From: a virus
Direction: 5' to 3' (one strand)
Length of the DNA: 22,811 nucleotides
Virus record (IMG/VR): IMGVR_UViG_3300006802_000624
Coordinates: 1-22,811 of that record
Below the pieces are notes generated by a model, which ran no database searches, was not told the DNA's origin, and saw only the letters and a list, made by a program, of their open reading frames with translations. A program made the position numbers and the translations under genes. This document shows, piece after piece, positions 3-17,656 of this stretch; within the stretch, counting starts at the first letter, position 1, and each line of letters opens with the position of its first letter.

Positions 3-572
3 TTAGAGATAATCACACCACATTTAACAAATACTCGAGTGTGTCTAGATATTGGTGCTCACATAGGAGCAACTGCAATCAAATATTCTAAAATTTTTGA
101 TACAGTACACGCATTTGAACCAATTTCACACCTATACGGTTTATTAGAAGAGAATACAAACAATTTCGAAAATATTACTATACACAATGTAGCAGTATCA
201 AATATAGATGGTACAGTAAAAATATATGAAAACTCTAAAAACTCTGAATCGAATGTAGTCCTCCATGATGATACATTATCCTTAATTGAAGGCAGAAAGA
301 ATACTCGATTTAATACAGAACCTAAAGAAGTAAATAGTAGAACAATCGATAGCTATAACTTTAGTAATGTAGATTTTATTAAAATTGATGTTGAAAGATA
401 TACCGTTCCGGTTTTAGAAGGAATGATAAAAACATTAAAGAATAATTCTCCGATATTGCAACTCGAAGTAGATAACATACCTAGCATAAATTCTAGAACC
501 GCTAATTTATTAGAACCTTTGGGTTATAAAACATTTAAAAAACTATCAAGTGATTGGTTTTATAAAAAATGA
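3..572 (+). CDS. FkbM-family SAM-dependent methyltransferase, 5' truncated
   Basis: The open frame runs in from the left edge, so the N-terminus is missing. The visible part carries the class I methyltransferase glycine motif CLDIGAHIGATA followed by VHAFEP, then VDFIKIDVERYTVPVLEGM, which is the usual FkbM order (motif I, acidic adenosine-binding strand, central Asp strand). FkbM enzymes O-methylate sugars or polyketides; here sugar methylation of a surface glycan is the natural inference because glycosyltransferase genes follow. A GTG at position 39 lies inside motif I and is not a credible start, since coding continues upstream (HLTNTR before VCLDIG). The stop overlaps the next start as ATGA at 569-572, so the two genes are probably translationally coupled. 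Family assignment is good; the substrate is unknown. Confidence 0.85.
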   Translation, partial: LEIITPHLTNTRVCLDIGAHIGATAIKYSKIFDTVHAFEPISHLYGLLEENTNNFENITIHNVAVSNIDGTVKIYENSKNSESNVVLHDDTLSLIEGRKNTRFNTEPKEVNSRTIDSYNFSNVDFIKIDVERYTVPVLEGMIKTLKNNSPILQLEVDNIPSINSRTANLLEPLGYKTFKKLSSDWFYKK

Positions 573-1369
573 AAACATTGATCTATCAATATTGGGATGG
601 TACCGAAAGACCAGGCAATACTGCTGGAGTTGAATTAATGAAAGCATATGCAGATAGAATCGGCGCTGATCATGTATATGAGAAAAATGCTCAATTTGTT
701 ACTGACATTGGTCCTTATTCTTCAAGTTACGGGTTATTAAAACCCATTTACGAGTATGGCGATTATGATTACGTAATGTATGCAGATTGTGATGTAGTCC
801 CTCGAGATAATTGTAATGAAAATATATTTGAGGAATTTGGTGACTATGACCTTGGTATCTGTGAAGAACCAAATGCACCACTAGCTCGTAAGAAATACAC
901 GATAGGCGGTGGTATTAATAACAAGAATGATGAAGCTTGGGTAGACTTAATTGAACGCAAATGGAAAGTGGTTATGCCTCGTACCGAAGATGGTCTTCCA
1001 AAGGTATACAACTCTGGTATGGTATTATGGTCAAAGACTGGTATGGAAAAAGCTAGAGATAGATTATATGATTTTAAAAAATATGTTAATTTGATTAATG
1101 TATTTAAATTACCACCATTCTATACGTGTGATCAACATTATATTCATGCAATGCTTGAGGTTTGTGATTTTAATTGGTTACAGATGCCGTACAAATGGAA
1201 TAGCTCAGTCCATTACGATCCTGCGGTTAAAATACAACCAAGGCCTGTTATTGATCTTAGAAAAAAAGATTATAATTTTGTACATATTCAGTTAAACGGT
1301 GCTGATAATTTTGATAAAGAAAAAATCCACACAATAGTTAATAAACCGGTAAAGGAATGGAATCTATGA
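569..1369 (+). CDS. Small GT-A type glycosyltransferase (paralogue 1 of 3)
   Basis: A 266-aa cytoplasmic protein that opens with MKTLIYQYWDG and has YADRIGADH at about residue 27. A DxD-type metal/nucleotide-sugar motif is present as YADCDVV (D73, D75). A later segment, PKVYNSGMVLW, resembles the acceptor-side NSG motif of GT8/GT32-like enzymes, and VHIQLNGAD near the end supplies a C-terminal histidine. The N-terminus and the position of DxD are shared with the genes at 1461 and 2108, so the three look like tandem duplicates. Start and stop are both in ATGA overlaps with their neighbours. The role is inferred to be transfer of a sugar onto a phage or host-surface glycan; donor and acceptor cannot be read from sequence. 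Confidence 0.75.
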   Translation: MKTLIYQYWDGTERPGNTAGVELMKAYADRIGADHVYEKNAQFVTDIGPYSSSYGLLKPIYEYGDYDYVMYADCDVVPRDNCNENIFEEFGDYDLGICEEPNAPLARKKYTIGGGINNKNDEAWVDLIERKWKVVMPRTEDGLPKVYNSGMVLWSKTGMEKARDRLYDFKKYVNLINVFKLPPFYTCDQHYIHAMLEVCDFNWLQMPYKWNSSVHYDPAVKIQPRPVIDLRKKDYNFVHIQLNGADNFDKEKIHTIVNKPVKEWNL

Positions 1370-1464
1370 GTAAAATTTATAATTACACATATGATGAATA
1401 TATTAAGGCGCAAAAAGATCTTACAGATTTTAAATACGGCCGTATTGTATATGGAAGAAAATGA
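1366..1464 (+). CDS. 32-aa minigene between two glycosyltransferases
   Basis: A short frame of 32 residues (begins MSKIYNYTYDEYIKAQ, ends IVYGRK) starts in an ATGA overlap with the upstream glycosyltransferase stop and ends in an ATGA overlap with the next start at 1461. Such perfect fit at both ends argues that it is translated. Its last codons and stop/start junction (GGAAGAAAATGAAA) are identical to the junction at the end of the CmcI-like methyltransferase (about 4057-4070), whose C-terminus ends VLGRK. It may be the residue of a larger methyltransferase reduced by internal deletion, or simply a linker peptide that keeps translational coupling. No function is recognised. Confidence 0.5.
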   Translation: MSKIYNYTYDEYIKAQKDLTDFKYGRIVYGRK

Positions 1465-2111
1465 AAAATTTAATATTACAACATTGGAATGGTCCTTTGC
1501 CTTTATGGGCAGAGAAATGTAGACAAAGTGTTTCGGATTATGCAGAACAGATTGGTGCGGATTATCAGTTACTATCTGGCTATCCATTTATAACACCACC
1601 TCAAAAATTTGATGTTAAACCTTGGACTGTTATACAAAAGATTCATATGATAGATTCTGTATATGATGTATACGAAAATGTTTTAATGCTAGATATGGAT
1701 ATGATGGCAATAACACGTTTCCCTGTTGATAATATTTTTAATCATGAAGGAATTGGCCGCTTACATTTAAAATCAATGTCCGGGTTAAATAATAGTAGAT
1801 CTAGATTATGGCCTAAATTATATAAGGAAGGTGCTCCTGCATTTTTTGGTAATTGTGTAAAATTAAATAAAAGTGAAAGAATAGCATTAAGAAATGTTTG
1901 CGATAAAGAAGAAATTATAAATGCATCTAATGATGATATACCACCAAATGATGAAATCATAATGCATTATTTAATGTGTAAATCAAATATTTTAGAACAT
2001 AAAAAGAAATTAGAATTACCACATAATAAATTTTGTGATTTAGTTGAAGAGGCACATCCAGAAGCCACTCTAATTCATTTTTGCGGACCTAGGAAAAATA
2101 GTATAAAATGA
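1461..2111 (+). CDS. Small GT-A type glycosyltransferase (paralogue 2 of 3)
   Basis: A 216-aa protein starting MKNLILQHWNGPLPLW with SDYAEQIGADYQLL at about residue 25, nearly the same N-terminal pattern as the genes before and after it. The DxD motif is LMLDMDMM with D78 and D80. It ends with ATLIHFCGPRK, a His-containing C-terminal segment comparable to VHIQLNG and IIHVRYTPHK in its paralogues. It is shorter than paralogue 1. It is coupled to both neighbours by ATGA overlaps. No signal peptide or membrane segment is visible, so it should act in the cytoplasm on a nucleotide-sugar donor. Exact family (GT8/GT32-like against an unclassified phage family) is uncertain. Confidence 0.72.
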   Translation: MKNLILQHWNGPLPLWAEKCRQSVSDYAEQIGADYQLLSGYPFITPPQKFDVKPWTVIQKIHMIDSVYDVYENVLMLDMDMMAITRFPVDNIFNHEGIGRLHLKSMSGLNNSRSRLWPKLYKEGAPAFFGNCVKLNKSERIALRNVCDKEEIINASNDDIPPNDEIIMHYLMCKSNILEHKKKLELPHNKFCDLVEEAHPEATLIHFCGPRKNSIK

Positions 2112-2806
2112 AAAATTTAATCGTACAACACTTTCATCCACAATATGAAAACGTTGGTAAACCAATGCCGTGGATTGTGAAAAAAAGTACGGATAATATA
2201 AGACGATATGCAGAACAGTTGGGTGCTGAATATAGATTATTAGATGGTGAACCATTTAGAAAAGGCTTACGTGCACAATGTCAAAAGCTTTGTGTGTTAA
2301 ATGAAGAATTTGACGAGTACGATAATATTGCTGTATTTGATACAGATATGTTTTTAGTAAATGGCTGTAAAGAAAATATATTTAAAGCAAAAGGAATTGG
2401 TACTCATCCGGATGTTCACAAAACAAGAGTTATGGGAGATTTTCAAAGGGCATTTCCAAAATTGGCCAATCCAGATTATCCTATATTATCCGGATCTGCA
2501 TATTCTTTTCCCAAAGAATTTAGACAATTAATGCGTAAACAAATTAATTCCGGAATGGAATCAGTATTTCAATTGATAAGCCCAAAACCTTTTGTTGATG
2601 AAGGTATTTTACACGTATTGATGCAAAAAGCAAAATTTAAACTTGATCATTATCTAGATGAAAGATGGTCATATAGTAGCTATTTACCAGAGTTAACCAA
2701 GGCATATATAATTCATGTGCGATATACTCCACACAAAAAAGGCGGGCCCATCGACATGCGAGATGAAAATTGTAAAAAACTAATTAATAGTGGTATTATA
2801 TCATGA
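2108..2806 (+). CDS. Small GT-A type glycosyltransferase (paralogue 3 of 3)
   Basis: A 232-aa protein starting MKNLIVQHFHPQYENVG, with RRYAEQLGAEYRLL at about residue 32 and a DxD motif AVFDTDMFL at D78/D80, the same residue numbers as in the previous gene. PILSGSAYSFP is where an NSG-type acceptor motif falls in GT8/GT32-like enzymes. IIHVRYTPHKKGG near the C-terminus supplies a histidine typical of the end of the catalytic domain. It overlaps both neighbours by ATGA. Three related enzymes in a row suggest stepwise addition of different sugars, or alternative specificities created by duplication. The substrate is unknown. Confidence 0.72.
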   Translation: MKNLIVQHFHPQYENVGKPMPWIVKKSTDNIRRYAEQLGAEYRLLDGEPFRKGLRAQCQKLCVLNEEFDEYDNIAVFDTDMFLVNGCKENIFKAKGIGTHPDVHKTRVMGDFQRAFPKLANPDYPILSGSAYSFPKEFRQLMRKQINSGMESVFQLISPKPFVDEGILHVLMQKAKFKLDHYLDERWSYSSYLPELTKAYIIHVRYTPHKKGGPIDMRDENCKKLINSGIIS

Positions 2807-3498
2807 AAGCTTATATTATATGTGTGAAAGGAAATGAAATTTCAGAAAAGGGTGCGGATATCTGTATTACCTCATCTAAAAAAGTACGAAATGAATTTAA
2901 AATTGAAATATTTGATGCAGTAACTCCATCCATGGCTAATGTTGTGTTAACTGGTAATGGTTTAAAATGGAAATATCCATGGGAAGGTCAGGAAACTGAT
3001 TTAAAAACTGGCTTAATCAAATCTGCATATCCTACAAAGGTAAAAGAAAATAGAATTGCATGTGCAATGAGCCACTGGTTATTATGGAAACAATGTGAAA
3101 AATTAAATGAACCTATTTTAATTTTAGAGCACGATAGTATTTTTATTAAGCGTTTAGATTATGATTCAATTCTAAAAAGTAACTATGACATTATTGGTAT
3201 TAACTCCCCTGCGTCAGCTACACGTCGTGCACATATGTTCCATGATATTATACAAGAACGGACCGCATGGATACAACCAGTACCAGATATTGACGAATTT
3301 AATGTTCCACAAGGTCTTGCGGGAAATTCGGCATATATAATTAAACCAGATGGGGCTAAAAATGTTATTAAGGCAAGTAGAGATCATGGTGTTTGGCCAA
3401 ACGATGCTTTAATGTGTAAACAAATTATTCCTAATATGGGTGTTACTAAAACATATTTTACTAGAATTCAAGGATTACCATCAACAACTGTGAATTAA
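2803..3498 (+). CDS. GT25-like (LPS-type) glycosyltransferase, copy 1
   Basis: A 231-aa protein opening MKAYIICVKGNE, with RIACAMSHWLLWKQC at about residues 84-98 followed by PILILEHDSIF (E109-H110-D111). This is the GT25 arrangement: a conserved SH-x-LW helix, then an acidic E-x-D metal-binding strand. GT25 enzymes include LOS/LPS galactosyltransferases and related enzymes. GLAGNSAYIIKPDGAK at about 167 fits the family's A-Y-I-I/V region. The gene starts in an ATGA overlap and ends three bases before the next ATG. The related gene at 4068 has the same layout. A role in extending a surface oligosaccharide is inferred from family and context. Confidence 0.75.
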   Translation: MKAYIICVKGNEISEKGADICITSSKKVRNEFKIEIFDAVTPSMANVVLTGNGLKWKYPWEGQETDLKTGLIKSAYPTKVKENRIACAMSHWLLWKQCEKLNEPILILEHDSIFIKRLDYDSILKSNYDIIGINSPASATRRAHMFHDIIQERTAWIQPVPDIDEFNVPQGLAGNSAYIIKPDGAKNVIKASRDHGVWPNDALMCKQIIPNMGVTKTYFTRIQGLPSTTVN

Positions 3499-3501
3499 AT
3501 T

Positions 3502-4071
3502 ATGAAAAAATCAGAATTAAAAAATATTACAATACTGGAAGAATTTCACAAAGAAATTTATAGACAGCAAGAAGAAAATCATAGAGAACACTATTGTGCT
3601 ATTCATCATGCTGTTGTGAAATACTGGAACGAAGGTAAATGTGAATCATATATTGAACTTGGTGTTCATCAAGGCGGTACTGCATCTAATATTTTATTGC
3701 AAAAACCCAAAAAGGTTGTCCTTGTTGATAAAAATTTAGATTTATATAGAGAGCATTTAGAGCCAATTGCAATTCATTATTGTGATCAACATAATATTGA
3801 ATTAAAAACAAAAGAATGTGAATCAATTGACCTAGAAGCAATTGAATTGAATTGTGATATGCTTTTAATAGATAGTTATCACAAACCAGATTATATGCTA
3901 CAGGAATTATCCACACATGCACACAATATTAAAAAATATATAATTGCACATGATACATATGCAGTAAGGTCATTGCATAAATGCTTGGAAGATTTTGCTA
4001 TAAAAAATAAATGGAAAGTTTTAGAATATAATAAACAAAACGTTGGTTATACAGTATTGGGAAGAAAATGA
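3502..4071 (+). CDS. CmcI-like class I SAM methyltransferase
   Basis: A 189-aa protein with motif I as YIELGVHQGGTASNIL (about residues 50-65), followed by VVLVDKNLD, the acidic SAM-ribose strand. Downstream are CDMLLIDSYHKPDYMLQEL and YIIAHDTYAV, a pattern seen in the cephalosporin-hydroxylase/CmcI and Methyltransf_24 group, where D, H and HD residues line the active site. These enzymes often methylate sugar hydroxyls in glycan gene clusters. It lies between two GT25-like genes, so modification of the same glycan is likely. Its stop overlaps the next start as ATGA. The family is fairly secure, the substrate is not. Confidence 0.72.
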   Translation: MKKSELKNITILEEFHKEIYRQQEENHREHYCAIHHAVVKYWNEGKCESYIELGVHQGGTASNILLQKPKKVVLVDKNLDLYREHLEPIAIHYCDQHNIELKTKECESIDLEAIELNCDMLLIDSYHKPDYMLQELSTHAHNIKKYIIAHDTYAVRSLHKCLEDFAIKNKWKVLEYNKQNVGYTVLGRK

Positions 4072-4718
4072 AAGCATATGTAATTACAATTATGGATAAT
4101 GAACAGTCTGTAAAGTCTGCAGAAAGATGTATCAGATCTGGTAAAAAATACGGACAAGAAATTGAAAAGCACAAAGCATTTACTCCTAAGGATAATCCGT
4201 TTTATATTCTACACACCAAAGGAATTCAACCTTCTTTCTTTTCCGAAAAATATTCCAGGCAATTGAATTGTGCAGCTGCATTTTTATCACATCATTCTTT
4301 GTGGGAAAAAGCAGTAAAAGAAAATGAATCAGTTATGATTTTTGAGCATGATGCTGTAGTAATTGGTTATTTACCAACCGAAGAGAATTTTAAAGGTGTG
4401 ATGACTTTTTCAAAACCTTCATATGGTAGATTTAATACTCCTATTAAAATTGGCGTTGATGGGTTAAAACAAAAACCATATTTTGGTGGAGCACATGGTT
4501 ATATGGTTAACCCTTGGGGTGCAAAAGAATTAATTGATAAAGCAAAGACAATGGGTCGACCAACGGATGTTTATTTAAATTTAGAAACATTTCCATGGTT
4601 GGAAGAATATTATCCATGGGCCTGTATGGCAGTTGATGGATTTACAACAATCCAAAAAGAAGAAGGCTGTCAAGCAAAACATAATTACAAAGATGGATAC
4701 GAGATAATTGATGCCTAA
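4068..4718 (+). CDS. GT25-like glycosyltransferase, copy 2
   Basis: A 216-aa protein starting MKAYVITIMDNE. It has AAAFLSHHSLWEKAV at about residues 69-83 and SVMIFEHDAVV (E93-H94-D95), the same SH-x-LW plus EHD order as the gene at 2803. GGAHGYMVNPWGAKELI at about 155 corresponds to the A-Y-I/M-I/V region of GT25 enzymes. The start is in an ATGA overlap with the CmcI-like gene, and the stop lies eight bases inside the next gene. Sequence between the motifs differs clearly from copy 1, so the two are old duplicates or independent acquisitions. A sugar-transfer role in the surface-glycan pathway is inferred. Confidence 0.72.
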   Translation: MKAYVITIMDNEQSVKSAERCIRSGKKYGQEIEKHKAFTPKDNPFYILHTKGIQPSFFSEKYSRQLNCAAAFLSHHSLWEKAVKENESVMIFEHDAVVIGYLPTEENFKGVMTFSKPSYGRFNTPIKIGVDGLKQKPYFGGAHGYMVNPWGAKELIDKAKTMGRPTDVYLNLETFPWLEEYYPWACMAVDGFTTIQKEEGCQAKHNYKDGYEIIDA

Positions 4719-5388
4719 AATAATTGAAGAATTGGTTATAACCGGTTGTGATTCTAAAACTGAATGGCAATTACCTTGGTTTTTGGATAACTATTTAAAA
4801 CATAATAGAATTCCAATATGTGTTGCAAATTTTGGTGTTACAGAGGAAACAAGACAATGGTTAGCAACACACCCATTTATCCATTGTATAATGGACTTAA
4901 AGGAAACAAGTGACATTAAAGCATGGTTCTATAAACCAACTGCAATGTTTCATTTACCTGCTAAAAAAGGTGTTTGGCTAGATACAGATTGTCAAGTGCT
5001 TGATAACATTGGTAAAATATTCAGACTTATTGAACAAGATAAACTCTTAATGGCAGTTGATAGACCTTGGTTAAAACGGCGTGGTGAATTATGGCATAAT
5101 AGTGGAGTTGTAGGATGGACTGGTAGACCAGAAATTTTACAAAAATGGATTACTGCAATTAAAGAAAATCCTAATGTTGGAGATCAAGAGGTTTTACATA
5201 GTATTCTAAACCCTATCACTATGATGAAATATATAAAAGAGTTACCAAACGAATATAACTGGTTAAGATTACAAATTGAAAATGATGGAGAAGACAGTCC
5301 TAGTAAAAAAATTGTACATTGGACTGGTGAAAAGGGTAACGATCGTATTAGAGGAATGATGAAAGTTATGGAGGCTTTAAGTGCCTAA
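4711..5388 (+). CDS. GT8/GT32-like glycosyltransferase
   Basis: The ATG at 4711 (MPKIIEELVITGCDSK) is preferred over the TTG three bases upstream. The 225-aa protein has a DxD motif in GVWLDTDCQVL (D91, D93), an acceptor-site-like segment ELWHNSGVVGW near residue 125, GDQEVLHSIL near 155, EYNWLRL and a C-terminal KIVHWTGEKGN. DxD, then NSG, then D/E-Q, then NWL, then H-W-T-G is the usual order of motifs in GT8 and GT32 enzymes. It overlaps the previous gene by eight bases. Its stop lies eight bases inside the next gene, whose ribosome-binding site is in its own coding sequence. It probably uses a UDP- or GDP-sugar; the substrate is unknown. Confidence 0.78.
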   Translation: MPKIIEELVITGCDSKTEWQLPWFLDNYLKHNRIPICVANFGVTEETRQWLATHPFIHCIMDLKETSDIKAWFYKPTAMFHLPAKKGVWLDTDCQVLDNIGKIFRLIEQDKLLMAVDRPWLKRRGELWHNSGVVGWTGRPEILQKWITAIKENPNVGDQEVLHSILNPITMMKYIKELPNEYNWLRLQIENDGEDSPSKKIVHWTGEKGNDRIRGMMKVMEALSA

Positions 5389-6073
5389 AACAGTACATGT
5401 TATTGGTAATGGAGATTCTGCTACATTTTTTAATGAAGCGCCTAGGAAAGGATTAAAATTAGCCTGTAATTTAGCCCCATTTCCTATTGAAAATTGTTAT
5501 GCTTCATGCATAGTAGATTTTAAAATGATGAAAACGATACACAGTAAAGTTGTTGATATACCTGGTGAATGGATCCTTGGTGCAAGACCAAAAATATATA
5601 TGGAAAAAAATCCAGGTTTTAGAATGCAAAGAGCACATCAAATTAAAATGTTCTATACAAAACTCCCAAAATATGCTGGAAACTATACCGATTTTAATTG
5701 TGGTCATATGGCAGTATACTGTGCTGCAGAATATCTAAAAGCAGATGTAATCCATATGTACGGATTTGATTCTATTTTTGATTTTAATTTAAGAAGTTAT
5801 ACAGACACATTTATTAACTCCGATCGAGGCAATATGAATAATAATCGGTTGTCAACAAATTGGAGGCCTTTATGGATGAATATGTTTAAGGACTTTGATG
5901 GTTCTGGTAAAAACCAAAAGATTGAATTTGTTTTACATCACATGCATGATAATCTAAAATTTAATATTGGTAAAAATGTTATTATAGAAAAATACGGTCG
6001 TAGAGGTGAAATAAAACCTCCAAAGGAAAAATCGGAAAAGGCCTGGCAACCGCCGGCAAATGGGATAATGTAA
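5381..6073 (+). CDS. GNG-motif Rossmann-like protein of the glycan cluster
   Basis: The start is a GTG at 5381, supported by GGAGG at 5370-5374 six bases upstream. The 230-aa protein begins with a Rossmann-like loop, VHVIGNGDSATFF (G9-N10-G11-D12-S13), followed by LACNLAPFPI and CIVDFKMM. GHMAVYCAAEYLKADVIHMYGFDS in the middle, with a G-F-D-S loop, resembles the DUF115/MptE and GT42 sialyltransferase-like folds, which share a G-N-G-P-S opening and a G-x-D motif. That resemblance is by motif only. The proline-rich, charged tail (GEIKPPKEKSEKAWQPP) looks unstructured. It is the last gene of the glycan operon. Transfer or sensing of a nucleotide-activated sugar is possible but unproven. Confidence 0.6.
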   Translation: MPKTVHVIGNGDSATFFNEAPRKGLKLACNLAPFPIENCYASCIVDFKMMKTIHSKVVDIPGEWILGARPKIYMEKNPGFRMQRAHQIKMFYTKLPKYAGNYTDFNCGHMAVYCAAEYLKADVIHMYGFDSIFDFNLRSYTDTFINSDRGNMNNNRLSTNWRPLWMNMFKDFDGSGKNQKIEFVLHHMHDNLKFNIGKNVIIEKYGRRGEIKPPKEKSEKAWQPPANGIM

Positions 6074-6110: not shown

Positions 6111-6129
6111 AAACATAATGGAGGATAAT

Positions 6130-6570
6130 ATGATTTTTGTAGAAGGTGGCAGTAAACGTCAAAGAGAAGTGACTTATCAAGCAGTTCAGTTTGCTTGGGC
6201 AGAATTGATGCCAAGGATAAAAAAATGTATTATCAATGTTGAATTAAAGCGATTGAAAGGTTATGACGGTACTTGTTTAGATACCGGCAATCGTGAATAC
6301 CAAATAGAAATCAATAAAAAGCTTAGTCTAGGTGATAACTTTCTTACAACAATTTTTCATGAAATGGTTCATGTAAAACAATATGTGAGGAAGGAACTTT
6401 TTAGCGATGTTAATTTCTATAAAACACGAGAAGAATATTTAAATTTACCTTGGGAAATTGAAGCTTATAAAATGCAGGAGGTATTATTAGAAAGATGGGA
6501 CAGTTTAAAGACCACCAACAATCGGAGTTGGAATTATTCCGTAGGGAAATTCTTAATCGGGAAGGTATGA
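6130..6570 (+). CDS. Zincin-like putative metallopeptidase (HExxH)
   Basis: The start at 6130 is chosen because GGAGG at 6120-6124 lies five bases upstream; an ATG at 6118 overlaps that site. The 146-aa product has TTIFHEMVHVKQ with H77-E78-xx-H81, the zinc-binding and catalytic motif of zincins, and a downstream LPWEIEAY (E109 or E111) that could give the third ligand, as in the small SprT-like and related minimal zincins. There is no signal peptide or membrane segment, so it should act inside the host cell. It is the first gene after promoter P1 and overlaps the coiled-coil frame that follows. Substrate and true peptidase activity are unknown. Confidence 0.7.
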   Translation: MIFVEGGSKRQREVTYQAVQFAWAELMPRIKKCIINVELKRLKGYDGTCLDTGNREYQIEINKKLSLGDNFLTTIFHEMVHVKQYVRKELFSDVNFYKTREEYLNLPWEIEAYKMQEVLLERWDSLKTTNNRSWNYSVGKFLIGKV

Positions 6571-6695
6571 TTGAAATCCTACAAAATAATATTAGAGAAT
6601 TACAAGAACAATTACAAAATTCTTATAAAAGAATAGAGGAGTTAACTAATGAAAAATGTACTCATTGCAACTGCGACCATCGCAGCACTAATTAA
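6495..6695 (+). CDS. Coiled-coil small protein with Cys/His tail
   Basis: A 66-residue frame overlaps the end of the zincin gene and the start of the glycine-zipper gene. Its middle (about residues 10-52, with REILNREG, LQNNIRELQEQLQ and RIEELTNEK) has clear heptad spacing of hydrophobic residues and should form a coiled coil. The tail CTHCNCDH offers three Cys and a His that could bind a metal. A start at 6567 (ATGA overlap with the zincin stop, 42 aa) is a real alternative; the longer start has AGGAGG about 13 bases upstream, which is far. The protein-like composition favours a real gene. Function unknown. Confidence 0.5.
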   Translation: MGQFKDHQQSELELFRREILNREGMIEILQNNIRELQEQLQNSYKRIEELTNEKCTHCNCDHRSTN

Positions 6696-7852: not shown

Positions 7853-7929
7853 GGTTCCGTAGCTCAGTTGGATAGAGCAATTGCCTTCTAAGCAATGGGT
7901 CAGGGGTTCGAATCCTCTCGGAATCGCCA
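7853..7929 (+). tRNA. tRNA-Arg (anticodon TCT)
   Basis: A full cloverleaf can be drawn. The acceptor GGTTCCG pairs with CGGAATC (one G-U), the D arm is GCTC...GAGC, the anticodon stem ATTGC/GCAAT (7880-7884 and 7892-7896) encloses loop CTTCTAA with anticodon TCT at 7887-7889, and the T arm is AGGGG-TTCGAAT-CCTCT. The discriminator is G and CCA is encoded (7927-7929). It reads AGA/AGG, codons common in the AT-rich phage genes here, so it probably supports phage translation. Confidence 0.95.
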
Positions 7930-10987: not shown

Positions 10988-11176
10988 ATGGAAATTATTT
11001 GGCATATACTGTTAACTGTTTGTTTAGGTTCTACCTGTATTGAACAAGATGTACAACAGTTTGATACTAGAAAAGAATGTGATCAAACGTTAAAAGTATA
11101 TACTGATATACCACCAGATGGTGATTGGGATATTATCCAGTATGAATGCAAACCAGTTGGTTCAACTTCTACATAG
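10988..11176 (+). CDS. Small cysteine-containing protein, 62 aa
   Basis: Starts three bases after the previous stop. The product begins MEIIWHILLTVCLGSTC with a short hydrophobic N-terminus and has four cysteines (C12, C17, C31, C54), then PPDGDWDIIQYECKPVGS. The spacing F-D-x-x-x-E-C...I-P-x-DG-x-W-x-x-x-x-Y-x-C-K-P resembles short periplasmic or disulfide-bearing phage proteins I recall, so export is plausible though the N-terminal segment has no clear cleavage site. Its TAG stop (11174-11176) shares its last base with the first base of tRNA-Leu. Confidence 0.62.
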   Translation: MEIIWHILLTVCLGSTCIEQDVQQFDTRKECDQTLKVYTDIPPDGDWDIIQYECKPVGSTST

Positions 11177-11260
11177 CCCGCGTGATGGAATTGGTAGACA
11201 TAACGGACTTAAAATCCGTGGACTTAGGTCGTGCCGGTTCGAGTCCGGCCGTGGGTACCA
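11176..11260 (+). tRNA. tRNA-Leu (anticodon TAA)
   Basis: An 85-nt type II tRNA. The acceptor GCCCGCG pairs with CGTGGGT (two G-U pairs), the D arm contains TTGGTAGAC, the anticodon stem ACGGA/TCCGT encloses CTTAAAA with anticodon TAA, the long variable arm is GGACTTAGGTCGT, and the T arm is GCCGG-TTCGAGT-CCGGC. CCA is encoded at 11258-11260. It reads UUA, the leucine codon favoured by these AT-rich genes. Its first base is the last base of the upstream stop codon, so it is probably cut from the mRNA. Confidence 0.95.
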
Positions 11261-14218: not shown

Positions 14219-15853
14219 TCCCCAAATATTATCCCCGGGATCACCTGAATTCCATTGAAATCCCATAACATTTGTATCACCTGCATTATTTACAGATTGA
14301 TCAATTGTTTGTGAAGTAAATGCTGGAGTGCCACCTCCTCTAGTTTTATTCACTTCACTCTTAATGTATTCTTCCATGATTGGTGTCATAGTAGTTCCAG
14401 TTGGAACCTTACTTAAATCACCACTTGCTGTAGCAGGAGGTATATTTTTATTTAAAGCCGCACGTCTTTTTTCATCGGCGCGCCGGAACATATCTCCCCA
14501 ACTTCCTAAAGCCTGTGTTCCATTATAGGTTTCTTGTATATTTGCTGTCTCACTACCCTTAACCAATGGCGTAGTTTCATATTTGGCTTTAAGTTCTGCA
14601 TCTCTTTTGGCTTGAATTTTATCAGCTACTTCTTTCTCTAACTGCCTCTCAATGGCGTCGTACATCTCATTAAAGCCACCAGCACGCTTTAAATCCGCCG
14701 CTATGCGGCCTTGTTGAGCCAATAATGTATTTTTCAAATCTTCTTTAAGTAGCATGGGCCTTGTGTAAGAATCTACTTTGTCTCCATATAATTCATCTAT
14801 TCCTAGTCTTTTAGCTAGAGCTTTCATTGCATCAATATCTGTATTACTAATGCCTTCTAATTCTATTCTCGATCCGGTAATCTCGCTGATTTGTCCTTTT
14901 ATATTTGCTTCTTCTCTTAAAAGTTTTTGACCTGCTTCCGACTTAGACATTTCTTCTCTAATAGCTCTGTCTTCTGCTGAAGTTGTCACAAAGCTTGGTA
15001 GAAACTCATTTATTTTATTTTTAATCCAATCCTTAACTGAAGTTAGGGCATCGGTAATTGCCATAAACATTGGTGCTAATGCTTTATTAACATCCTTTCG
15101 AAACTCCTCATCTGTGGCATATGCAACAATTAATCCGCCGAGAGCAATTGATAATGCGACTAAAAGTCCTTTTGGGCCTAAAAAGAAAGGCATTAACTTA
15201 CCAGCCATTAAACCAATGAGTTTAGGTAAACTTAATCCAGCAGCTGCCAATCCACCAGAAATTGCTAAAGTTTGCCAATCATCCTTTTTAAGTTCAGTAT
15301 CTAACAAATCATTTAATTTTGTAGCAATCGAGTCTCTTACTCCATCTGAAAAAACCGTACCAAGTATTGCTCCAATAATACCACCTTTTAAACCGCCAAC
15401 AAGAAAACCAGCAGCACCTCCAATTGTTGCCCATTCCGATATTGATCCTAATATTTGGCTACCTGTAAGTTTTGTTACGGCTTCAGCAATTTCATCAGCA
15501 AGCACAGTAGCTAATATTGCAGGAATTCCTCTCTTTATCATACCAGATAAAAACGCACCAGCCAAAGGTAAAAGATTACCGACATCAAAATCAAAAAATC
15601 CTCCACCATTTTTTGCTGATTTTGTTCTACCTACAGAAGTAGATGCATCAGATCTGGTTTTACTTATTTCTCTTTTTGCTTCTTCAGCACTTCTTGCATC
15701 TTCTTCTTCAGCATTTTTTATCATATCAAAAAAGGCATTAAATCCTTTTGCAAGTGAGTCAACTCTTTGTGAAGTTTGAGCTTGTTTTTCACCAAGATCT
15801 AGAGTTTGCTCTTGTAAGGTTTTATTGATATCTGATAGTGTAACTGCTGCCAT
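14204..15853 (-). CDS. Tail tape-measure protein candidate (gp29-like)
   Basis: A 549-aa protein. It has an N-terminal helical, charged section (about 1-80), a glycine/alanine-rich hydrophobic region with likely membrane-type segments (about 95-150 and 205-245, for example GGAAGFLVGGLKGGIIGAIL and LLVALSIALGGLIVAY), a long charged helical section (about 290-440) and a low-complexity polar tail. Hydrophobic segments in a long helical protein lying directly after a tail-assembly chaperone gene are the hallmarks of tape-measure proteins. T4 gp29 has 590 aa, so length fits a tail slightly shorter than T4. Direct similarity to gp29 is not evident by eye. It starts in a TAATG overlap with the frameshift extension. 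Confidence 0.6.
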   Translation of the reverse strand: MAAVTLSDINKTLQEQTLDLGEKQAQTSQRVDSLAKGFNAFFDMIKNAEEEDARSAEEAKREISKTRSDASTSVGRTKSAKNGGGFFDFDVGNLLPLAGAFLSGMIKRGIPAILATVLADEIAEAVTKLTGSQILGSISEWATIGGAAGFLVGGLKGGIIGAILGTVFSDGVRDSIATKLNDLLDTELKKDDWQTLAISGGLAAAGLSLPKLIGLMAGKLMPFFLGPKGLLVALSIALGGLIVAYATDEEFRKDVNKALAPMFMAITDALTSVKDWIKNKINEFLPSFVTTSAEDRAIREEMSKSEAGQKLLREEANIKGQISEITGSRIELEGISNTDIDAMKALAKRLGIDELYGDKVDSYTRPMLLKEDLKNTLLAQQGRIAADLKRAGGFNEMYDAIERQLEKEVADKIQAKRDAELKAKYETTPLVKGSETANIQETYNGTQALGSWGDMFRRADEKRRAALNKNIPPATASGDLSKVPTGTTMTPIMEEYIKSEVNKTRGGGTPAFTSQTIDQSVNNAGDTNVMGFQWNSGDPGDNIWGKATP

Positions 15854-16026
15854 TAGTTATTTTCTGCTTCTCTTTCACGTAAATGATTTAACAACAATGT
15901 TAAATACACTTCTCTCTCCCACGGTAACATATTATCAATTTCAGTTAACGAATAATGAAAATTTTGTAATAACTGGAAATTAGTTCTATAAAAATTTTCA
16001 AGTGATTCATGAGAGAGGTTTATGAA
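15853..16026 (-). CDS. 57-codon extension reached by -1 frameshift (gpT-like)
   Basis: This minus-strand frame encodes FINLSHESLENFYRTN, then FQLLQNFHYSLTEIDNM, then LPWEREVYLTLL and NHLREREAENN, ending in TAATG with the tape-measure start. The composition and the YSLTEIDNMLPWERE type motif look like a genuine conserved tail-assembly segment. The frame has no ATG, GTG or TTG until an ATG at the NM residue, which would leave only 25 aa. It is open upstream across the T8 run in the gp26-like gene, so -1 slippage would give a 295-aa fusion (238 residues plus 57). Expression by reinitiation seems less likely. It is placed where lambda has gpT. Confidence 0.72.
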   Translation of the reverse strand, partial: FINLSHESLENFYRTNFQLLQNFHYSLTEIDNMLPWEREVYLTLLLNHLREREAENN

Positions 16027-16739
16027 AAAAAATCGTGCAGACCCTCCAAAGTATGTTTATGGTTTTTATTACAAGACTCGCATTTATATTCAATATCTAA
16101 TGTCATTTTTGGAATTTTATCTACAAATGTATTTACTATTGAAAATTGTTCTGAAGTAAGTGAATTAATAAATTCTTCAATTTCTTCCCTAGATTCATCC
16201 TTTAATGAAATATGTTCATTTTCCGTCATTACAGAATCAATACAAGATGTTAATATTTCGAACAATATTTCGGTTGTAGCTTGACCTTCGTTTATTATAA
16301 TTTTTTCATTTGTAATAAAATCATAATATGTTGGGTATTTCATTTTAAGTGAAATATCTTCAGTAAGTTTAATAATTTTTGGTTTTATAGAACCATCTAA
16401 TTTAATATTATCTAAATTAATTTTAATTTCGTTTTCGTGTTCACATTCTTTACATTTAATACTCACATTGGTAACTTCACCAACAGACTTTGATCTAATT
16501 TTTGTAAAAATGTAATCTACATCAAATGTTGATAATTTATTTACATCGTATGCATTATCTGTACAGTTGGCAACACAATTTAAAATTGCATTAATAATTT
16601 GTTTTTGATCTTGTGATTCATATGCAATTAAAAGTAGTTTTTGTTCCTTAATTAAAAATGGTCTATATTTTAATTTTTCCCCAGTTGAAGGTATATCTAA
16701 TTCATACTGTGAAGATTCATTCAATCTTGGTAGTGCCAT
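16020..16739 (-). CDS. 26: gp26-like baseplate hub / tail-assembly chaperone
   Basis: The ATG at 16739 (MALPRLNESSQYELDIPSTG) overlaps the upstream stop as TAATG and gives the usual N-terminus of this family; an ATG five codons upstream is less likely. The 239-aa protein begins with a beta-rich segment (YRPFLIKEQKLLLIAYES) and has a C4 zinc-ribbon-like set: IKCKECEHENEIK (about 113-125) and YKCESCNKNHKH (about 219-230). This matches T4_baseplate (PF12322, gp26-type) proteins. It sits just before the tape-measure gene, the place of gpG-type chaperones, and ends in a T8 run that allows a -1 frameshift to a 57-residue extension. A role in chaperoning the tape measure or hub is inferred. Confidence 0.75.
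   Translation of the reverse strand: MALPRLNESSQYELDIPSTGEKLKYRPFLIKEQKLLLIAYESQDQKQIINAILNCVANCTDNAYDVNKLSTFDVDYIFTKIRSKSVGEVTNVSIKCKECEHENEIKINLDNIKLDGSIKPKIIKLTEDISLKMKYPTYYDFITNEKIIINEGQATTEILFEILTSCIDSVMTENEHISLKDESREEIEEFINSLTSEQFSIVNTFVDKIPKMTLDIEYKCESCNKNHKHTLEGLHDFFS
16025..16032 (-). promoter_or_regulatory. Slippery T8 run, probable -1 programmed frameshift site
   Basis: On the minus strand the gp26-like gene ends GAT TTT TTT TCA TAA. The T-TTT-TTT heptamer within the eight T residues fits X-XXY-YYZ, and both tRNA-Phe anticodons could re-pair after slipping back one base. The zero-frame stop follows only two codons later, as often seen in phage tail chaperone frameshifts. No clear downstream stem was found by eye. 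Confidence 0.65.
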
Positions 16740-16987: not shown

Positions 16988-17656
16988 TTATAAACTACCC
17001 AGGCCGCCAATCGCTTGAATCCAACCTTGGCCACTTGAAGTTGGTTCCCAATTTGTATATGATAATGTTACAGATACCTGTGCAAGCCCATCTAGTTCAT
17101 TATTCAATTCTATTTGTTGTATATCAAGAGGAAAAGCATCTTTCAATCTTACGGTATATACAGAACCACCACCCAATCCTACATTTATTTTAATTGGCCC
17201 AGCACCAAATCCTAAATTTTTAATTGGTTTTCTCAACTGATGAATTTTTATGTCTTTACTATATTGTGATTTATAGCCAACCGTACCTTGTTTTTCATCT
17301 AGTACAATACTTCTCCATTCATCAAAATATTTTTTTACACCATAATCATTCATTAAATAAAATGTAAGATTTACATCTGGGGCTATATAGCCATATGGAA
17401 CTTTTTGCATTTCCATACCCATAGGCCTGTCATGAGTTAATAAAGATTTACCTGGCATAGTAACTGATGAACACAGTAAATTTAAATCCCCACCACCAGA
17501 ACCTAGACCAATACCACTAGTAAGGAGAGTGGTTAATTGCCCAAGAAAACCACCACTTGATGCAAATGTTGTAGGTAATTCAACTAAAAATTGGTTTGTT
17601 CTTGCAAAACCTAATTTACTAGATGCTAGTGATTTTAATTGATCTACTGAACTCAT
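16988..17656 (-). CDS. 54: Tail-tube-fold protein, baseplate tube initiator gp54-like
   Basis: A 222-aa protein with the tail-tube fold signature: an N-terminal FARTNQFLVELPT strand, a Gly/Ser-rich loop, LCSSVTMPGKSLLTHDRP at about residue 80, YGYIAPDVNLTFYLMNDYGVKKYFDEW (strand, then an aromatic-rich helix), and a C-terminal QIELNNELDGLAQVSVTLSYTNWEP. The P-G/x-x-L plus F-Y-L-N-D-x-x-x-K-x-F-x-x-W block is shared by gp19, gp48 and gp54 relatives. Length and place among hub genes favour gp54, the first tube ring on the baseplate, over the main tube protein gp19, but that is inference. Its start overlaps the upstream stop (ATGA). Confidence 0.65.
   Translation of the reverse strand: MSSVDQLKSLASSKLGFARTNQFLVELPTTFASSGGFLGQLTTLLTSGIGLGSGGGDLNLLCSSVTMPGKSLLTHDRPMGMEMQKVPYGYIAPDVNLTFYLMNDYGVKKYFDEWRSIVLDEKQGTVGYKSQYSKDIKIHQLRKPIKNLGFGAGPIKINVGLGGGSVYTVRLKDAFPLDIQQIELNNELDGLAQVSVTLSYTNWEPTSSGQGWIQAIGGLGSL

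Follow-up and report, generated by a model that had tools for sequence, protein, structure and literature searches.

The stretch of viral DNA analysed here, 22,811 nt from a marine relative of phage T4 (IMG/VR record IMGVR_UViG_3300006802_000624, positions 1 to 22,811; hereafter the window), carries on its minus strand a gp26-like gene and, continuing it in the -1 frame, an extension, both sitting between a tail tube gene and a putative tape-measure gene (Table 1). The identity of the last of these is assigned mainly by position: the gene at the same place is annotated as a tape measure in phages phiM12 and Cr30, and the predicted product resembles the phiM12 protein weakly (E 0.003) and contains two long hydrophobic segments. 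A search of the locus for near-identity to isolate phages gave no match.

Table 1. Features of the gp26-like locus, in window coordinates.
Feature	Position	Strand	Basis
Tail tube gp19-like gene (upstream context)	16988..17656	-	phrog_45, E 3.3e-30
gp26-like gene, short form, TAC-N, 239 aa	16020..16739	-	PF12322 and phrog_150 matches; profile alignment to T4-type gp26
Shine-Dalgarno-like GGAGGG, 9 nt from its end to the heptamer	16042..16047	-	Sequence; GAG enrichment; anti-SD pairing
Slippery heptamer T_TTT_TTT (0-frame gaT TTT TTT), within T8 at 16025-16032	16026..16032	-	Sequence and conservation
-1 extension, TAC-C (gp51-like, phrog_634), 57 aa after the slip	15853..16026	-	phrog_634; dN/dS; homology up to the slip site
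Weak AU-rich hairpin downstream of the slip site	15948..16010	-	-10.7 kcal/mol, z -2.5
Putative tape-measure gene, 549 aa	14204..15853	-	Position; weak phiM12 similarity; hydrophobic segments

The product of the gp26-like gene matches PF12322 with a Pfam E-value of 1.2e-62 (211.9 bits against a gathering cut-off of 24.5), and the gene matches phrog_150 with an E-value of 2.7e-65. Read on the minus strand it ends GAT TTT TTT TCA TAA, the eight T residues running from 16032 to 16025 and the stop codon (16022-16020) lying shortly 3' of the heptamer. The -1 frame is open from just past a stop at 16059-16057, across the T-run, to a TAA at 15855-15853, and a fusion of the gene with this extension would be 295 aa long; no ATG, GTG or TTG occurs in the -1 frame until an ATG at 15930, from which a product of only 25 aa would result. 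The original prediction, which had proposed a probable -1 programmed frameshift at this place, gave each of these numbers correctly when the sequence was re-read: the 3' end of the gene and its T8 run, the coordinates of the -1 frame and its 57 residues, the lack of a start before the ATG that leaves 25 aa, and the lengths of the short form and the fusion. The TAA that closes the extension overlaps the ATG of the putative tape-measure gene (TAATG, 15851-15855, minus strand), and comparably tight overlaps of stop and start are present in many relatives, which suggests that translation of the tape measure is coupled to that of the long form.

When 56 residues of the extension were used as a query, they matched phrog_634 ('baseplate hub assembly catalyst', gp51) with an E-value of 1.7e-21 and also the C-terminus of phrog_150, while Pfam returned no match. 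The segment that the original prediction had left unnamed is thus already known as gp51, although annotators mostly begin it at an internal ATG or overlook it altogether. A tblastn search with the extension at a lax E-value limit of 10 matched 880 phage records, mostly of cyanophages, and the best matches begin at the first residue searched, adjoining the slip site; the homology starts there, not at a start codon, and extends upstream of the annotated starts. Comparison of the window with four relatives (L003, L004, L007 and L009) gave dN/dS values of 0.03-0.20 for the extension in the -1 frame as against about 0.5 to 6, mostly near or above 1, for the other two frames; a further comparison, with L010, was saturated at silent sites. 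As dN/dS is low only in the -1 frame, it is in that frame that the extension is very probably translated. Within the genes of the window there are 61 in-frame heptamers of the form XXXYYYZ, and just five are followed by a -1 continuation of at least 25 codons; of the four besides the one described here, two are very short and two enter an overlapping or following ORF with its own ATG.

The sequence at the slip site is conserved among relatives. Relatives were gathered from 192 loci, 184 of which contain both the gp26 part and the extension. All 184 place the extension in frame -1, with T_TTT_TTN in phase within the overlap; the heptamer closes with TTC or TTT in 177 of them, with TTA in six and with TTG in the remaining one. 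Together with the low dN/dS of the extension, this pattern strongly supports the frameshift that had been called probable; loss of the T-run with the downstream frame unchanged was never encountered in the survey. It had also been suggested to look beside PF12322 genes in other T4-like phages for a T-run combined with a startless -1 frame: the run and the frame are universal among these relatives, but only nine of the 184 lack any possible start codon up to residue 20 of the extension. The invariance extends to silent positions, as the P-site codon is TTT and the codon preceding it ends in T in all 178 distinct loci, whereas the loci's own codon usage would be expected to give TTT in about 125 of 176 and the preceding T in 105 of 176 (about 60-70%); of 126 further Phe-Phe pairs in these genes, 4 are slippery. 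The loci do not represent phylogenetically independent samples, but the site is just as invariant across 85 clusters formed at 60% identity, and near-copies therefore do not account for it. The gp26 stop codon follows the heptamer by 0-1 codons in 172 of the 178. The site is also kept in six of eight more distant phages (Cr30, ACP17, LPCS28, Aeromonas 65, V05 and SRB7757), including ACP17 with its 59% GC, where the extension is unannotated.

A -1 extension also follows the gp26 homologue in Klebsiella phage Menlow (Ackermannviridae; L201, about 2260-2480) and in Pseudomonas phage Cygsa01 (L197, about 2200-2411). In both, a canonical XXXYYYZ heptamer is absent and ATT TTC stands at the equivalent place. 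The Cygsa01 extension has a start within a TAATG; in Menlow that position is occupied by ATT and there is no early start, leaving its extension, which is unannotated, startless.

One way to read the locus differently is to regard gp51 as a separate small protein, produced by re-initiation or from a start of its own near the gp26 stop, with the T-run being incidental. This is how public records treat it, as a gene in its own right, and 101 of the 178 distinct relatives do have an ATG in that frame no later than residue 10, so that a separate short protein is also possible in these. However, in the window, as in its nearest relatives, no start codon occurs before residue 33 of the extension; for the window, an own start or re-initiation was rejected as there is no usable start codon. 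The conserved protein reaches the slip site, upstream of the annotated starts, and T4-type gp51 carries a fused gp26-like domain. A separate gene also leaves unexplained why two silent positions and the phase should be invariant in 178 of 178 loci. The original prediction had itself allowed for homologues with a separate start and no slippery run, and what was found instead is homology that begins at the slip site and a run that is conserved. We regard a separate gp51 as improbable, and the production of the long form by transcriptional slippage on the T-run as marginally more so. The T8 of the window is near the length where polymerase slippage becomes plausible, but the run is T6 in 124 of the 184 relatives, which favours tandem tRNA slippage over both transcriptional slippage and homopolymer error, and the feature that is conserved is a heptamer in tRNA phase accompanied by a Shine-Dalgarno-like element at a dnaX-like spacing. 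Finally, a sequencing or assembly indel that splits one gene, as might be imagined from a break inside a T-run, can be dismissed, given that 184 contigs and isolates agree in the -1 offset (just T6 being present in two-thirds of them), that the 0-frame stop is almost always 0-1 codons from the heptamer, and that isolates obtained independently, P-SSM2, phiM12 and DLP6 among them, refute it.

We consider it very likely, judging from sequence, that the locus is a single gene from which two tail assembly chaperones are made by -1 programmed ribosomal frameshifting, gp26 corresponding to TAC-N and a gp26-gp51 fusion to TAC-NC. That these would be chaperones of the gpG/gpGT type is suggested by the position between tail tube and tape measure, by the short and long architecture, and by the evidence from T4 presented below. 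In the mechanism that we envisage, most ribosomes would terminate at the gp26 stop codon and release the 239-aa short form. A smaller fraction, perhaps detained where the internal GGAGGG pairs with 16S rRNA, would slip back by one base while two tRNA-Phe occupy the TTT TTT of T_TTT_TTT, and would then read 57 more codons to give the 295-aa long form. We infer both the occurrence of slippage and its rate. If the pair works as lambda gpG/gpGT does, the short form would coat the tape-measure protein encoded directly downstream, and a few copies of the long form, by binding the tape measure, would recruit it.

The likeness to lambda gpG/gpGT and to other such chaperone pairs of caudoviruses is one of organisation: a short ORF, a heptamer near its 3' end, a startless -1 extension and an adjoining tape-measure gene. 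No significant similarity of sequence or fold to these pairs was found, and the slippery sequences differ, being T_TTT_TTN in the marine phage and G_GGA_AAG in lambda. A confident AlphaFold2 model of the short form (pLDDT 83.8) matches gp26-like proteins of many myoviruses; its similarity to the HK97 tail chaperone (HK97 gp13, 2ob9) is insignificant (E 2-2.7, probability 0.12-0.21), and 2ob9 and 3fgx appear for this model only at E 2-4.5 and probability 0.12-0.21. A sequence search of the PDB with the gp26 profile gave no match, and a search of NCBIfam with these proteins gave nothing convincing.

What might stimulate slippage? One candidate lies upstream of the heptamer. The Glu codon at the position of the Shine-Dalgarno-like element is GAG in 95 of 133 relatives (71%) as compared with 29% elsewhere in the gene, and across relatives the mean energy of pairing with the 16S anti-Shine-Dalgarno sequence has a sharp peak at this position, where it is -6.8 kcal/mol as against the -5.3 expected from synonymous codons and is stronger than that expectation in 128 of 176 loci. 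It is possible, on these patterns, that GGAGGG acts as an internal stimulator of -1 slippage. The E. coli dnaX cassette consists of A_AAA_AAG with a stable stem-loop and an upstream Shine-Dalgarno-like element, and the two systems are alike in having a homopolymeric heptamer preceded, at a distance of about 10 nt, by an internal element of this kind; they differ in that no counterpart of the dnaX stem-loop was found to be shared among the gp26-51 relatives. The downstream hairpin of the window is a doubtful stimulator. Relatives have a mild tendency to fold just downstream (mean z -1.6, falling to about -0.25 further on), and RNAalifold applied to anchored alignments of the relatives detected no shared downstream RNA structure.

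The relationship to T4 provides a further view of the long form. The short form aligns with T4-type gp26 in a profile comparison (E 3.8e-18) that ends at the same FF, whereas T4-type gp51 is matched by the entire fusion (hhalign, 98.9% probability, E 2.1e-17, columns 14-294); T4-type gp26 and gp51 also match each other (E 3.3e-17). Gp26 and gp51 of T4 are, by these profiles, paralogues, with gp51 bearing an extra C-terminal domain. The alignments indicate that a short and long pair exists in both groups, from a frameshift in one gene here and from two paralogous genes in T4. In T4 itself (genes 26 and 51, L021 4303-5729), as in ECD7, Mineola, AhMtk13a, Ursula and L9-6, the two are separate, divergently transcribed neighbours, and the FF codons of T4 gp26 are TTC TTT, which is not slippery; the Tevenvirinae lack the site. 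Both proteins are listed as hub assembly chaperones in T4, and gp51 was described in 2010 as a protein needed for assembly but not present in the particle, with a function still unknown (PMC3004832). A tree of frameshift-type fusions, T4-type gp26 and T4-type gp51 resolves three monophyletic groups, but as it is unrooted neither replacement of a frameshift by a duplication nor the reverse direction is proven. We lean slightly towards a scenario in which the Shine-Dalgarno-like element plus T_TTT_TTN cassette is the near-universal form of gp26/gp51 in the T4 superfamily outside Tevenvirinae-type lineages, in which it would have been replaced by duplication into genes 26 and 51 so that the essential gp51 of T4, a puzzle for so long, would be a constitutive 'frameshift product', with the Ackermannviridae keeping a startless -1 extension that has no canonical heptamer.

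The principle of such a frameshift is already known in other phages and has been discussed for T4-like phages. Vladimirov, Gautam and Davidson (2022, Virology 566:9-15), as cited in PMC10274946 and PMC12846349, identified the TAC genes of T4-like phages; the paper on PRFect reports from that work that some T4-like phages do without a frameshift and carry a fusion gene alongside the short one (PMC10274946), and the same work is cited for the presence of poly-T slippery sites in the TAC-N genes of such phages (PMC12846349). The original prediction knew of no such frameshift described for the gp26 family of T4-like phages, and these citations indicate otherwise. A tail chaperone frameshift has also been reported in Vandenendeviridae and Andersonviridae, where, as here, the -1 frame continues the TAC-N gene upstream of the tape measure and a T-rich motif is conserved, although that motif is GTTTTT and the phage families are others (PMC12846349). 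What our analysis adds is breadth, the invariance of the heptamer, the Shine-Dalgarno-like element, an explicit mapping onto gp26 and gp51, and the recognition of widespread misannotation. In public records gp51 is begun at an internal ATG or missed (loci L016, L018, L019, L032, L196, L198 and L199 of our set), and the conserved N-terminal part of the extension is therefore missing from databases; many phage genomes on public record seem to share this systematic error of annotation. The short ORF labelled 'gp51' in T4-like phages, marine ones among them, would be the end of a frameshifted chaperone, not a separate gene. The comparison also offers a testable role for T4 gp26 and gp51, and suggests that the ratio of two such products can be attained either by recoding or by gene duplication.

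Elsewhere in the window, a 148-aa gene at 6124-6695 on the plus strand has an in-frame TTTAAAG 19 codons before its stop. Its -1 continuation of 61 codons is coiled-coil-like and may be an overlapping gene, as that frame contains an ATG at 6495 and shows a weak lambda ea8.5-like match. Also on the plus strand are genes for tRNA-Arg (anticodon TCT, 7853-7929) and tRNA-Leu (anticodon TAA, 11176-11260), and a sugar-transfer cluster at 3-6073 that comprises an FkbM methyltransferase, a family 25 glycosyltransferase, a weak family 8 match and several more similar ORFs that have no Pfam matches.
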